64,000 nt of DNA from Buchnera aphidicola (Thelaxes californica) (GTDB lineage Bacteria; Pseudomonadota; Gammaproteobacteria; Enterobacterales; Enterobacteriaceae), in assembly GCF_005080825.1 (NCBI RefSeq), contig NZ_CP034852.1:335120-399119 (forward strand), written 5' to 3'. The notes under the pieces were generated by a model, which was given only the letters and a program-made list of their open reading frames with translations, was not told the DNA's origin and did no database searches. Below are positions 1,912-46,714 of this stretch, one piece after another. The translations under genes were made by a program, and so were the position numbers. Every line of letters starts with the position of its first letter. Position 1 is the first letter of the stretch.

Positions 1912-2544
1912 TTATTTTTTTTTATTACCTGCAATAATAAAAAATTCACGAGAACAAGCACTAGAAGATTTCGGTTTACATATTTTTACATGAAAAAAAT
2001 GTTCACGCATCAAATTTAAATATTGATTAACGCCTGTACCCTGAAATATTTTTACTAAAAATAAACCTTCTTTAATAAGAATTAATTTTGTAATTTTCAA
2101 TGCTAGTTCAGCTAAAAAAATAGAATTTGGTATATCTATAGATGATATTCCTGTTATATTAGGAGCCATATCAGAAATTAATAAATCTACTTTTTTATTA
2201 CATACATAATTTAAAAATTGTTTCAAAAAGAGATGATTTGTCAGATCTCCTTGCATAAAAATTACCTTATCTATTTTTTTCATATTTATTCTATCGCAAG
2301 CTATAATTTCACTATTTTTTTTATTTAAAAATTGATGTGAAACATATTGAGACCATCCCCCAGGAGCAGCTCCTAAATCTACTACACATTTTTTATTATA
2401 TAATAAATTTGTCATTTTATTTATTTCATCTAACTTAAACCATGCTCTAGAACGTAATTGATTTTTATGAGAATTTTGAACATATATATCATTAAAATGT
2501 TTTTTTAACCATTTTTTAGAACTTTTAGAACGTTTTTTTTTCAT
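1912..2544 (-). CDS. rlmE: 23S rRNA 2'-O-methyltransferase RlmE (FtsJ/RrmJ)
   Basis: Methylates the ribose of U2552 in the A loop of 23S rRNA within the 50S subunit. The SAM-binding motif VDLGAAPGGW begins near residue 55. The catalytic K-D-K-E tetrad is readable: Lys in the KLDEI stretch near 38, Asp in SDMAPN, Lys in LVKIFQGTG and Glu in SREFFI. Length 210 matches E. coli RlmE (209). It sits between greA and ftsH on the minus strand; yhbY, found between greA and rlmE in E. coli, is absent here. The N-terminus is strongly basic, as expected for an rRNA-binding enzyme. Confidence 0.97.
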   Translation of the reverse strand: MKKKRSKSSKKWLKKHFNDIYVQNSHKNQLRSRAWFKLDEINKMTNLLYNKKCVVDLGAAPGGWSQYVSHQFLNKKNSEIIACDRINMKKIDKVIFMQGDLTNHLFLKQFLNYVCNKKVDLLISDMAPNITGISSIDIPNSIFLAELALKITKLILIKEGLFLVKIFQGTGVNQYLNLMREHFFHVKICKPKSSSACSREFFIIAGNKKK

Positions 2545-2688
2545 AATTTTACTAATTTTTTTATAAATAAAAATACTAATATCATTAAAAAGATTTTTAA
2601 TAAAATATTTTAAGATAAATATGTTTACATTGTAAAATAAACATAAGAATGATAAACATTTTTATGTATAAAAAATTTTTTGAAATGA

Positions 2689-3168
2689 TTAAACATGTTG
2701 TATCATTAAAATTTGATATTTTACTATTCCTCTAGGAGTTTTTACTAAAACGATATCATCAATTTCTTTCCCTATTAACGCTCGAGCAACAGGAGAATTA
2801 ATAGAAATTAATTTTTTTTTGAAATTAGATTCATCATCCCCTACAATACGGTATACAAATTTTTTTTTTTCATCAATATTATAAATTGTAACTGTAGAAC
2901 CAAAAATTACTCTTCCTGTATTACTAATTTTTTTTATGTCTATAATATGAGCTTTAGATAAAATTGTTTCAATATATCTAATACGACTTTCACAAAATCC
3001 TTGTTCTTCACGAGCAGCATGATATTCTGCATTTTCTTTTAAATCGCCATGTTTTCTTGCTTCTTGAATTGCATTAATAATTTTAGGTCTTTGATTCTTT
3101 TTTAATTCATATAATTCATTTAACAGTTTTATTTCTCCAGAAATTGTAATAGGAATGTGTTCTATCAT
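2689..3168 (-). CDS. greA: Transcription elongation factor GreA
   Basis: Binds the RNA polymerase secondary channel and stimulates cleavage of backtracked transcripts. The N-terminal coiled coil (about residues 1-75) carries the acidic tip motif in DLKENAEYHAAREEQ, which supplies the metal-binding Asp and Glu. The C-terminal FKBP-like domain ends in TPRGIVKYQI. Length 159 versus 158 in E. coli. A T11 run at 2860-2870 reads as A11 on the coding strand and is a possible slippage site, but the frame is intact. First gene of the leftward greA-rlmE-ftsH run. Efficient transcript cleavage could matter in a genome full of homopolymers; that is inference. Confidence 0.97.
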   Translation of the reverse strand: MIEHIPITISGEIKLLNELYELKKNQRPKIINAIQEARKHGDLKENAEYHAAREEQGFCESRIRYIETILSKAHIIDIKKISNTGRVIFGSTVTIYNIDEKKKFVYRIVGDDESNFKKKLISINSPVARALIGKEIDDIVLVKTPRGIVKYQILMIQHV

Positions 3169-3568
3169 ACTATATTCTCCTTAATCTATTCTATTAAATA
3201 TAGAATAATTCAAATTAACTATATTAATAATAACAATTTCAATGTTATTAATACAATTTATTTTATTAAAAAATGGAATTTTCATATTTAAATATAATAA
3301 AGTTATTAACTTCGTTAATATATTTTTCAAAAAAATTATGTATAGATTATATTTAATTAAATATATAAAAAAATTTTTTATTTTACAAACATAAATAAAA
3401 TAATTAAGATAATACCTAATAACTTTTTTTTGATTTATACTATATAAACAATTATATATTGTTAAAAATATCAGAATTATGATTATTATAATGTATAGCT
3501 AAAAAAGATATATAATTTTTAATTAAAAATTTTTTATTTCCATCCACAATTTAAGTTTATATTACAAA
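3169..3568. other. Gene-free gap between divergent greA and ibaG
   Basis: No open frame with recognisable homology on either strand. The stretch is almost pure A/T. It must hold the promoters of greA (leftward) and ibaG (rightward), but AT content makes -10 look-alikes uninformative. A 7-bp hairpin (arms 3188-3194 and 3200-3206, loop 5) lies in the greA leader, and an 8-bp one sits at 3228-3250. Neither has a U-tract. Whether they regulate greA cannot be judged from sequence. Confidence 0.5.
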
Positions 3569-3835
3569 ATGAAAATTAAAGATATTAAAATATTATTAAA
3601 AAAAAAAATACCATTAAGTGACATCTATATTGAAGGAAATAATCAACATATAAAAATTATCGCAATCGGTGATATATTTAACAATATGAATACTATGCAA
3701 AGAGAAAAAACCATATATAATATTTTAACTCCATATATAATTAATCAAACCATACATGCTGTTAGTATCAATGCATATTCTCTTATAGAATGGAAAAATA
3801 ATTATATAAATAATGCGAATAAACATAAAAAATAA
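3569..3835 (+). CDS. ibaG: BolA-family protein IbaG (YrbA)
   Basis: Small BolA-like protein (88 residues; E. coli IbaG 84-89) of the family that pairs with monothiol glutaredoxins and binds Fe-S clusters. The family signature is clear in IIAIGDIFNNM and in HAVSINAYSLIEW, with the conserved His near residue 69. In E. coli it is followed by murA; here the next 347 nt hold no gene, so murA has apparently been lost from this position. It is divergent from greA. Identity rests on family resemblance over the full length; its exact role in this organism is not known from the sequence. Confidence 0.9.
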   Translation: MKIKDIKILLKKKIPLSDIYIEGNNQHIKIIAIGDIFNNMNTMQREKTIYNILTPYIINQTIHAVSINAYSLIEWKNNYINNANKHKK

Positions 3836-38333: not shown

Positions 38334-39251
38334 TTGATTAATAATCATAAAAAAAAAGTATTAATCATTGATGGTCATGTTTATTTTTATCAATCTTATT
38401 ATGCTTATCCTTTATTAAAAAATGACAAAGGAGAAAATTGTGGTGCAATATATGGATTTTTAAAAAAAATAAAAACCTTAATATTAAATTTTCAACCAAA
38501 AAAAATCATTATAGTATTTGATACTCCTTTGCCAACTTTTCGACATACGTTATTTAGCGATTACAAAAGTAATAGAAATAAAATGCCATCATTATTACAA
38601 CAGCAAATAATTCCTCTAAAATCAATTATTTTAGCTATGGGAATTCCAATAATTACTCTTCCTCATGTTGAAGCAGATGATATAATAGGAACATTAACAC
38701 ATTTAGGATCCAAAAAAAATGAAACAATATTAATATGTAGTAATGATAATGATATGAACCAATTAATTAATAAAAATGTTATAAGAATTAATAACAAAAT
38801 GAAAATTATTGGAATTCAAGAAATTAAAAAAAAATATGAAATACTTCCTCAATATTTACCACATGTATCAGCATTAATGGGAGATAAGTCGGACAACATA
38901 CCTGGAATTTATGGAATAGGAAAAAAAATTGCTACTATTTTAATCAAAAAATTTAATACAATTAATATATTGTATGAAAATATAAATATAATAAAAAATA
39001 TGAATATTAGAGGAACATTAAATATAATAAAAAATTTGAAAGAACAAAAAAAAACAGCTTTTTTATCTTTAAAATTAGTTACAATTAACAATAAAATCAA
39101 TATCGAAAAAAAATGGAACGAATTAAATTGTATAACCCCAAATATAAAACTATTAAATTTATTTTTCAAACAATATCAATTTAAATCTTGGTTAATAGAT
39201 ATAAACAACAATTTTGGATTAATACGATATATAGAAAATATAAAAGTTTAA
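38334..39251 (+). CDS. polA: DNA polymerase I 5'-3' exonuclease domain, free-standing
   Basis: Flap/RNase H-type nuclease that removes RNA primers and displaced flaps. Acidic metal ligands are intact: IIDGH (near 14), FDTPLPTFR, VEADDIIGT, SNDNDMNQL and MGDKSDNIPGI. A helix-hairpin-helix follows. It starts at TTG with AAGGA 9 nt upstream. It ends after 305 codons with QFKSWLIDIN, where E. coli PolA passes into its linker; a one-base loss puts the rest of polA in another frame. As I recall, the pea-aphid Buchnera also has only this domain. The domain ends cleanly, so it is likely functional. Confidence 0.93.
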   Translation: MINNHKKKVLIIDGHVYFYQSYYAYPLLKNDKGENCGAIYGFLKKIKTLILNFQPKKIIIVFDTPLPTFRHTLFSDYKSNRNKMPSLLQQQIIPLKSIILAMGIPIITLPHVEADDIIGTLTHLGSKKNETILICSNDNDMNQLINKNVIRINNKMKIIGIQEIKKKYEILPQYLPHVSALMGDKSDNIPGIYGIGKKIATILIKKFNTINILYENINIIKNMNIRGTLNIIKNLKEQKKTAFLSLKLVTINNKINIEKKWNELNCITPNIKLLNLFFKQYQFKSWLIDINNNFGLIRYIENIKV

Positions 39252-39283
39252 CTATAAAAATTATAGGAATAATCAACAATAAT

Positions 39284-41046
39284 ATGTTTAATATAAAAAA
39301 AAAAAGTTGGATAGATGTTATTCTTAATGCCAAAATAATTGCATTTATTATACAAATTAATAAAAAAAAAAAATTACATGCATTAATTTCACAATAAATA
39401 AAAACACAACTATTTACATTAAATTTAAAAAAGACAATAATCACTTTAATCAACTGATCAGTCAAAAAATAGAATTAAAAGTTTTTAAAAAAGTGTTTGA
39501 AAATAAAAAAATAACAAAAATTACTTATAATGTAAAATTACAATATAAAATTTTACAACAATATAATATTAAATTATCAGATAATACTCATGATATTTTA
39601 TTAGAAAACTATGTATTAAAAGGATTAATCAAAATTAATCATTGTATTGAACAAATTCATCAAGAATTAATGTTATATGAACATTTTTTATTAAAAACAA
39701 ATAAAAAACATCTTGGTAATTTTAAAATAAATATTAAAGATACTTCTCATTGTATTTTTCAAACACATCAAGAAAATAAGAAATATTTTAAAAAAGAAAT
39801 AAAATTACATTCAATTTTATATGATATTGAAAAACCAATAACGAAAATATTATATATAATGGAAAATAATGGAGTACTGTTAAATAAAGAAAAATTAAAA
39901 ATACAATCACACAATATACAAAATAAATTAAAAATATTAAAAAACAACGCTTATAAATTAGCTAATGAAAAATTTAATATTTTATCTAATGAACAAACAA
40001 GAATTATTTTATTTAATAAACTTAAATATAAAACCATTACCAAAACTCCTACAGGTAAAAATTCTATTAATGAAGCAGTATTACAAAGACTGTCTGAAAA
40101 ATATATTTTACCAAAAATAATTTTGGAATATCGAAAATTATATAAATTAAAATCTAATTATCTTGATAAATTAATAACAATGATTAATAAAAAAACAGGA
40201 AGAATACATACTTCCTACCATCAACATTCTACTACAACCGGTAGATTAACTTCTTTTTACCCTAATCTTCAAAATATTCCAAAAAAAACATTAGAAGCAG
40301 AAAAAATTAGAGAAGCTTTTATAGCTCCTCATGATCATGTTATTGTAACTGTAGATTATTCTCAAATTGAATTACGTATATTAGCACATTTTTCAAAAGA
40401 TCAAAATTTAATTAAATCTTTTCGAAAAAATATTGATGTACATAATGCAACAGCATCAAATATTTTTAATATTGAAATACATCAAGTTACTATACAACAA
40501 CGTCAAATTGCAAAAACAATAAACTTTTCTTTAATTTATGGCATTACTCCTTTTGGTTTATCAAAAAAATTAAATATAACAATTTATCAAGCAAAACAAT
40601 ATATTCATATGTATTTTGAAAAATATCATGGAATTTTAAATTTTATTCAAAAAACCCTCGATTACACTTCCAAGAAAGGATATGTAAAAACTTTATTTGG
40701 AAGAAAAATTTATATACCTAACATTAATTCTAAAAATTCTAACATTAGAAAAGCAGCAGAAAGAGCATGTATAAATGCTCCAATGCAAGGAACAACAGCT
40801 GATATAATTAAAAAAGCCATGATTAAAATACATAAATATTTATATTTAAATAAATTTGAACAAGGAAAAATGATTATTCAAGTACATGATGAATTAATAT
40901 TCGAAATTAAAACACAACATATAAAAACAACAACAAATAACATCCGTACAATTATGGAAAATATAACTACACTTGATATTCCTTTACTAGTACATATAGG
41001 AATAGGAAAAAATTGGAATGAAGCTAATAATACTCAAATTGTATAA
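39284..41046 (+). CDS. polA: DNA polymerase I large (Klenow-like) part, frameshifted from the exonuclease
   Basis: Polymerase part of PolA. The longest continuous frame runs 39493 (GTG) to 41046, and this frame is open from 39364. The region before it (39284 onward, KKKSWIDVILNAKIIAF) is in a different frame, joined at an A12 tract (39362-39373); one more A would restore continuity. Polymerase motifs are intact: VDYSQIELR (A), RQIAKTINFSLIYG (O helix with Arg, Lys, Phe, Tyr) and VHDEL (C). The 3'-5' exonuclease is dead: the DTE motif reads IIQ, and the other metal Asp residues are gone. Translation start is uncertain; it could be a late-stage pseudogene, but the long conserved frame argues for selection. 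Confidence 0.8.
39362..39373 (+). other. Poly(A)12 frameshift/slippage site in polA
   Basis: Twelve A. Before the run the PolA-like frame is the one reading IIQINK; after it the homologous frame reads ITCINFTINKN, one base off. A13 would join the two. A second run, A11 at 39295-39305, lies in frame upstream. Confidence 0.65.
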
Positions 41047-45627: not shown

Positions 45628-46714
45628 ATGATGATAGAGCAAAAAGAATTTAAACTAATACAAAAATTATATGAAAAATTTATCATTTTAAAGAGGAATC
45701 TTTGAATATGACAAAAAAAAAAATAGATTAAAAGAAATTCATTTACTACTGTCAAACACTCAAAATTGGAAAAATATTCTAATTACTACTCAATTATATA
45801 AAGAAAACAAAGAGATTGAAACAATTATTTTAAAAATAAAAGATATTGATAAAAAAATAAAAAAAATAAAAATATTGCTTAGAGAGAATGATAAAAAAAA
45901 TATATATTCAATTCATATTTTAATAACAGAACTGAAACAAAAAATTCAAAATCTTACTTTATATACAATGTTATCTCAAAAAAACGATAAACTTAATTGT
46001 TATATAGATATACAATCTGGGTCTGGAGGATTAGATGCACAAAATTGGGCAAAAATGTTATTACGTATGTATTTAAAATGGTTACATAAAAAAGAGTTTA
46101 AAGTTGCGATTATACATGAATCAGAAGGAGATAATATAGGAATTAAATCTGCTACAGTACATGTTTCCGGTAAATATGCATATGGTTGGTTGCGTACTGA
46201 AACGGGAATACATAGATTAGTACGACCAAGTCCTTTTAATAATAATAAAAAAAGACATACATCTTTTTGTTCAATTTTTGTATATCCTGAAATAAAAAAA
46301 TCTCATGAAATTAAAATTCAATCTAATGATTTAAGAATAGATTTTTACCGATCTTCTGGAGCAGGAGGACAACATGTAAATACCACTGAATCAGCAGTGA
46401 GAGTAACTCATATTCCAACAGGAATAGTCACACAATCACAAAGTGATCGATCTCAACATAAAAATAAAAATCAAGCATTAAAACAATTAGTTTCTAAATT
46501 ACATGAATTACAAATCCAAAAAAAAAAAACTGAACAAAAAAAAAAAGAACAATTAAAACATAAAATAAGATGGGGTAATCAAATACGTTCGTATATTTTA
46601 GATGATGCTCGAATTAAAGATTTAAGAACTGGAATAGAAAAAACAAACATTCAAGAAATATTAAATGGTGATTTAGATCATTTTATTGAAGCTAGCTTAA
46701 AAATGGGATTATGA
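45628..46714 (+). CDS. prfB: Peptide chain release factor 2 (programmed +1 frameshift)
   Basis: Recognises UAA and UGA stop codons. The gene must be read in two frames: ATG at 45628 gives 25 codons ending in CTT (45700-45702), then an in-frame TGA (45703-45705). A +1 shift continues at GAA (45704) as EYDKKKNRLKEI. The product is about 361 residues (E. coli 365). The SPF codon-reading motif is present in VRPSPF, and the catalytic GGQ in SSGAGGQHVN, where the residue at E. coli position 246 is Ser. Without the shift only a truncated frame from about 45875 would be seen. The A11 just after the shift (45713-45723) is in frame. prfB-lysS order as in E. coli. Confidence 0.96.
45691..45706 (+). promoter_or_regulatory. 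Programmed +1 frameshift signal of prfB
   Basis: Sequence AAGAGG AAT CTT TGA A. The internal Shine-Dalgarno-like AAGAGG (45691-45696) is 3 nt before the slippery CTT, exactly the E. coli spacing, and the in-frame TGA follows. The base after TGA is A, where E. coli has C. Low RF2 favours the shift to TTT and GAA, giving autoregulation of RF2. Confidence 0.93.

Follow-up and report, generated by a model that had tools for sequence, protein, structure and literature searches.

A polA gene divided into a free 5'-3' exonuclease and a separate, probably working polymerase without proofreading in Buchnera

Does a polA gene that has come apart between its nuclease and its polymerase still provide a DNA polymerase I, or is the polymerase part a dead gene? 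The question is raised by a locus in the window, by which we mean the whole stretch of 64,000 nucleotides that was analysed, which lies in a 534-kb genome of three contigs (G000) with a gene order resembling that of Buchnera. All features of the locus are on the forward (+) strand. An open reading frame of 305 codons (38334-39251), which starts at a TTG behind AAGGA and ends at a TAA stop codon (39249-39251), encodes a free 5'-3' exonuclease, the FEN-like N-terminal domain of PolA (Pfam 5_3_exonuc_N and 5_3_exonuc, 2.2e-47 and 4.2e-22), and its acidic residues are among the invariant columns of a 22-sequence alignment. A further open frame of 560 codons (39367-41046) carries the remainder of a ruined 3'-5' exonuclease domain, where proofreading-domain Pfam matches are weak and below the curated cut-offs, followed by a complete family A polymerase (DNA_pol_A, PF00476, 2.7e-139, residues 175-552 of 559). 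Motif A (the TVDYSQIEL region, 40348-40374, with the equivalent of D705 at 40354-40356), motif B or O helix (QRQIAKTINFSLIYG, 40498-40542) and motif C (QVHDE, 40879-40893) are all in place, and the 11 polymerase residues tested are all intact (R668, D705, E710, R754, K758, F762, Y766, Q849, H881, D882 and E883 in E. coli numbers). Both the split into a free exonuclease and a polymerase and the integrity of motifs A, B and C had been claimed in an earlier note on this DNA, and both are borne out.

The predicted structure of the window polymerase (44-row alignment) has a Klenow fold with a mean pLDDT of 88.1. Its first match among solved structures is Klenow 1kfs (TM 0.88, 40% identity in the structural match), and the two stretches with pLDDT below 50 both fall within the first 120 residues, which correspond to the proofreading remnant. 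Exonuclease and polymerase are not joined in one chain: they lie in separate frames in the window genome and in separate ORFs in both sister species (G001 and G002). In all three, polA adjoins engB and typA and so occupies the orthologous place; a search of a plasmid collection returned five records, all distant.

How the two pieces meet was read in three frames. The exonuclease stop is followed by a spacer of 32 nt (39252-39283; 12 nt in G001 and 18 nt in G002) and then by an ATG in frame 2 that opens a piece of 31 codons (39284-39376). This piece aligns weakly to the start of the 3'-5' exonuclease (AFIIQ vs E. coli AFDTE); it is short and weakly conserved and has no Pfam match. Within it, an A12 run (39362-39373) marks the passage from frame 2 to frame 1, that of the polymerase. 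In G002, a comparable piece starts at the ATG 18 nt past the exonuclease stop and leads to an A15 run, which is homologous in position to the A12 run and has an identical frame offset; in G001, an unbroken ORF of 609 codons encodes the polymerase, beginning at an ATG 12 nt past the exonuclease stop. Exonuclease and next piece share one frame in both sisters and are parted by at least two in-frame stops. For this reason we prefer to see the break in the window as a separation that was inherited, with later drift of the spacer. The earlier note had proposed a one-base loss near 39242-39251, which fits the frames (0 to 2) but is unproven, the sisters having in-frame stops instead. Since the sisters' pieces are parted by such stops and G001 has no frame break, the separation, present in all three species examined of the window genus, would by inference be older than the break at the A run. 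In G012 and G002 an A10 run stands just before the exonuclease stop, and a single slip there does not join the pieces, because what follows is already in frame with the exonuclease. The second cistron of the window probably begins at ATG 39284, in another frame, and meets the polymerase frame at A12. The frame is indeed open at 39493, where the earlier note had placed the polymerase start, but the start need not be there, as alignable sequence reaches back to ATG 39284. The GTG at 39493-39495 is the first ATG, GTG or TTG of the polymerase frame and a possible internal start; it has no clear Shine-Dalgarno sequence, and the first such start of G002 is located elsewhere.

Selection on the pieces was measured as dN/dS (Nei-Gojobori, with codon bootstrap intervals). 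Between G000 and G002, which both carry the A-run break and differ at 25% of polymerase residues, the ratio is 0.24 (0.17-0.32) for the polymerase, a rough figure thought to be an upper bound because dS of this pair is likely close to saturated, the genome being A+T-rich. The same pair gives 0.30 (0.21-0.42) for the 5'-3' exonuclease and 0.74 (0.44-1.30) for the proofreading remnant, and by dN the polymerase (0.16) is more conserved than the exonuclease (0.26). The other two pairs of the window genus have polymerase ratios of 0.36 (0.26-0.48) and 0.46 (0.34-0.64), and distant pairs with full-length members come to about 0.30 (G012-G160) and 0.33 (G223-G032), calculated from dN and dS; we take the ratios of distant pairs as upper bounds because a saturated dS inflates them. 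In the genus g92, the split pair G205-G260 is unsaturated (dS 0.27) and its polymerase ratio is 0.20 (0.13-0.31), with 0.21, 0.21 and 0.31 in three further g92 pairs. Five full-length pairs gave 0.14, 0.16, 0.17, 0.19 and 0.23, and g11 pairs with a broken gene 0.26, 0.27 and 0.38. (G009 was run with a wrong exonuclease start, with a stop at codon 3, and enters no pair.) Judged by these ratios, the split polymerase is clearly constrained and at close range evolves much like an unsplit one. Both pieces appear to be under purifying selection, roughly so in the window pair given its high dS, and without saturation in G205-G260. Polymerase ratios are below 1, and the neutral rates that the earlier note had set against its own reading were not seen. 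The proofreading remnant of the window genus is indistinguishable from neutral (0.74-0.90, with intervals that span 1); that of g92 is still constrained (0.23-0.43).

The proofreading site itself is gone: as the earlier note had said of the metal residues, D355, E357, D424, Y497 and D501 are replaced, by I, Q, Q, N and T, the last two where the alignment is poor and the Y497 position being a gap in a second alignment. It had also coupled this loss with the split, and here the comparison with other genomes goes against it. The tabulation of DEDDY and polymerase residues covers the first 21 of 35 polymerase-bearing genomes. All 11 tested polymerase residues are kept in each of these 21 small-genome PolAs and the full DEDDY set in none, including 11 that are full-length in one frame. 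Because these 11 full-length genes lack the full motif as well, proofreading loss is not tied to the split, and the link between the two was rejected; on the residues tabulated, the loss is general in the tested symbionts and not a mark of the split. Among control PolAs from other bacteria (43 from 74 usable of 80 loci, among the matches listed, none of them Buchnera), D424, Y497 and D501 are all kept in 31 of 43. According to PMC12926913, the DEDDy motif is broken in roughly half of PolA1 proteins, irrespective of genome size.

How widespread is the split? From a family sample of 246, 61 small genomes (200-800 kb) were hand-picked; genomes of the same size left out of the 61 include G130, G199, G220, G224 and G231. 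The exonuclease domain is present in 59 of the 61, the polymerase domain in 21 and the exonuclease alone in 38, with open frames 287-330 codons long in 34 of these 38. Because the split had already been seen in the genera g11 and g92, further genomes were taken from them; the genus g123 added none. The polymerase is kept in 14 of 16 g11 species, the other two having lost it but kept the exonuclease, and in all four g92 genomes. Read by frame, the 35 polymerase-bearing genomes comprise 19 with one frame, 13 broken at the joint between exonuclease and Klenow part and three broken elsewhere only (G020, G249 and G255). The break of G249 lies in the proofreading domain. In G020 (L072, about 1669-1678), an A10 run breaks the frame within the 5'-3' exonuclease and the rest of polA is in one frame; in G255 (L246, 3955-4003), polA is in one frame except for a break just past motif C, near the C terminus.

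Eleven of the 13 joint-broken genomes have a candidate start close to the exonuclease end or overlapping it (G000, G001, G002, G009, G060, G093, G205, G226, G012, G260 and G261), and a further A-run break lies behind the joint in G000, G002 and G012. In G250 (A19) and G252 (A11) the break is at a homopolymer within the joint, and these two genes may be read through by slippage. In all four g92 species an ATG overlaps the exonuclease end, inside its last codons, at one homologous place, which suggests translational coupling. G012, with a frame of 402 codons, had been taken for a decaying gene; this was revised, its second cistron being led by an ATG and interrupted by one A-run break.

In a tree of AlaS and LeuS from 30 genomes (INDEPENDENCE), built with FastTree, the split genomes stand in six places (the window genus, g92, G226, G009, G060 and G012). 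Groupings within genera are well supported, as is the position of the split G012 beside the full-length G160, and deep nodes are weak, so that six independent fissions, which the two-gene tree would imply, is an estimate. The breaks also differ in architecture between genomes, some consisting of in-frame stops and others of frame changes whose starts are placed differently, in agreement with six fissions. They converge on one region: across the 11 genomes measured, the last exonuclease residue corresponds to E. coli residue 289-329 and the first polymerase residue to 301-330, with a loose alignment of the linker. Six of the eight break events not at a long homopolymer fall in the joint, the other two being G249 and G255, which were assigned to this class by eye; the binomial probability of at least 6 of 8 breaks in a 46-residue window of 928 is 3.8e-7, with the window and the event count chosen afterwards. 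If the exonuclease alone were needed, breaks should scatter over the roughly 600 codons behind it. In L075 (G121, 2371-3685) and L079 (G179, 2407-3398), a gap of about 1-1.3 kb between the exonuclease and engB gave no polymerase match by tblastn of the window polymerase at 1e-5 or by PF00476; these gaps are likely the graveyard of a lost polymerase.

Altogether, a fission of polA into a working two-piece Pol I with a proofreading-dead polymerase seems to us the probable state of this locus, rather than a dead gene, because both halves are constrained and similar breaks occur in several related symbionts. The gene would have been cut where the Klenow cut falls in the E. coli enzyme. Its upstream cistron would yield a free 5'-3' exonuclease for the removal of primers and flaps, and its downstream cistron a separate Klenow-like polymerase that fills gaps without proofreading, after which ligase would seal the filled gap; we infer that both proteins are produced and divide the work as the fused enzyme does. 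Most likely this state is also a way station to loss of the polymerase. The order of losses across lineages would then be proofreading, the cut at the Klenow joint and the polymerase, with the exonuclease kept last. The earlier note had offered an intermediate stage and a working two-piece Pol I without proofreading as alternatives; both fit and they are compatible, full-length, split and exonuclease-only states all being found and the polymerase being constrained.

Three other explanations were weighed. The one that survives best, although we consider it unlikely, is that the polymerase part became a pseudogene so recently that its frame is still open, the exonuclease being all that is needed. 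The exonuclease does stand alone in 38 of 61 small genomes, and the two g11 species show that the polymerase can be lost while the exonuclease is kept, so loss occurs in relatives. The A12 break and the relaxed 3'-5' exonuclease remnant could be its first steps, and the distant window-genus pairs (0.36 and 0.46) exceed the five full-length pairs (0.14-0.23). A split PolA has also been interpreted as a pseudogene elsewhere: in the Burkholderia symbiont Lv-StB, likewise a reducing symbiont genome, polA is in two pieces, according to an excerpt of PMC7042692. There, unlike here, a transposase made the cut, the authors call the pieces two truncated pseudogenes, and selection on them is unreported in that excerpt. 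Against a young pseudogene, the polymerase ratio of 0.24 holds although G000 and G002 have diverged at a quarter of its residues, the frame is still open over 560 codons, breaks concentrate at the joint and not over the polymerase, and the overlapping ATG of g92 is homologous in 4/4 species.

Recoding at both breaks could yield some full-length Pol I, so that the gene would not be functionally split. Two shifts could join frames 0, 2 and 1, and in G250 and G252 the homopolymer lies exactly at the joint, where slippage could read through. We hold this to be very improbable: the first break in the window has no long run, other split genomes have an ATG at the joint, and a single shift would be useless in the sisters because in-frame stops part their pieces. 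Slimmer still is the chance that both breaks are sequencing or assembly errors in a continuous gene, for although one break sits in A12 and dnaQ of the same genome is broken at A10 yet in one frame in both sisters, the exonuclease/polymerase break has no long homopolymer, the separation consists of in-frame stops in two other assemblies, G002 has the identical offset at the homologous run, the nine other runs of at least 12 in the window lie within intact listed ORFs (8) or an open frame (1), and leuS is open over at least 848 codons in 30/30 genomes (two rows with one TAA inside the match).

Frame breaks suspected in leuS were not borne out: in G046 and G121 the matched part is one frame without stops (in G121 up to query residue 797), and in G090 both pieces lie in one 869-codon open frame. 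A script re-check of the suspected breaks found no forward match in the leuS locus of G090 and the alaS locus of G226. The alaS gene, which is normally essential, can be matched in one open frame over only about half its length, with stops inside, in L201 (G226) and L202 (G124), the two g123 species covered.

If polA is a working two-piece gene, how would the polymerase frame be read? We lean towards translation from ATG 39284 through A12, in transcripts to which RNA polymerase has added one A; translation from a downstream start such as GTG 39493 is a somewhat less probable alternative. The sequence features expected of a slippage gene are found: a break at a homopolymer, a frame that is otherwise open, and the same offset in G000 (A12) and G002 (A15). 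All seven tract breaks (polA in G000, G002, G250, G252, G012 and G020, and dnaQ in G000) need +1, of which only about five are independent (two-sided 0.06), and a bias to losing one A would give the identical pattern. In Buchnera, A or T runs hold 151 of 157 transcript insertions, with single-base insertions dominating, and the frame is not restored by them according to the part of PMC5574713 available. In Blochmannia, excerpts of PMC3017870 describe dnaX and dnaG with one poly-A/poly-T frame break, the dnaX break being common to two species, and slippage is proposed. Replication genes there are frameshifted at a homopolymer and otherwise intact, as is the window polymerase, but in Blochmannia the whole gene is one unit, whereas the window run lies inside an already separate polymerase cistron. 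The window contains ten A or T runs of at least 12, and the polA break stands out among them because the other nine lie in intact ORFs or an open frame, according to a list built from long ORFs from which broken genes could be absent.

Two further genes of this genome were noticed. Outside the window, dnaQ, the Pol III proofreading subunit (G000:C1:220592-221292; L265, L270), is broken at an A10 run and otherwise reads on. It is in one frame in both sister species and, as we take it, keeps its catalytic residues; the break may be slippage, a recent mutation or a sequencing error. In prfB (window 45640-45730), the site AGAGGAATCTTTGA with CTTTGA at 45700, followed by an in-frame A11 run, looks like a classical programmed frameshift.

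A broader reading joins these points, and we put it forward as tentative and rather doubtful: endosymbionts of the family would repeatedly and stably run replication and repair on a divided Pol I, made of a free flap nuclease and a proofreading-dead natural Klenow, and in the window genus slippage of RNA polymerase on a conserved poly-A run would determine how much polymerase is made, with dnaQ of the window genome under the same control.

Set beside E. coli Pol I and its Klenow fragment, the window polA is alike in domains, order and fold, and natural breaks of the window type fall at about residues 289-330, that is, at the Klenow cut, which we take to be at residue 324. It differs in being two cistrons, in having lost the 3'-5' exonuclease residues and in a change of frame after the beginning of that domain. 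Within Buchnera, an excerpt of PMC6403173 gives APS and 16 of 18 genomes as exonuclease-only and two with full-length PolA, in keeping with the statement in the earlier note that the pea-aphid Buchnera keeps only the exonuclease. The free exonuclease described there has the same end boundary as that of the window, which unlike it retains the polymerase as a separate constrained frame. The excerpted part of PMC11188193 lists polA among the genes lost in Buchnera of Phyllaphidinae, and what was available of PMC11481867 reports that, in transposon screens of Enterobacteriaceae, polA appears to hold an essential domain; the accessible part of PMC5437351 contains nothing on polA. PMC12926913 describes family A polymerases whose proofreading is inactive, as well as solo FENs, and both resemble the window pieces; a solo 5'-3' exonuclease substitutes for Pol I in genomes that lack it. 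The solo FENs described there occur where canonical Pol I is absent or replaced, in contrast to a PolA1 cut into adjacent genes. Cardinium is an endosymbiont group with apparently independent loss of PolA domains, which in the excerpt of PMC12842512 were deleted rather than split and retained. The literature covered, in part as excerpts and with most subscription journals outside it, yielded no report of a PolA divided between neighbouring exonuclease and polymerase genes and with selection on the polymerase.

The window polA thereby adds an intermediate between a full-length Pol I and the reduction to an exonuclease reported for most Buchnera, and indicates that the polymerase is able to persist as a selected gene of its own after the chain is cut. 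Two questions can now be put to the test: what these cells still require a family A polymerase for, and which functions of Pol I disappear before which (proofreading, joint, polymerase, and the 5'-3' exonuclease last).
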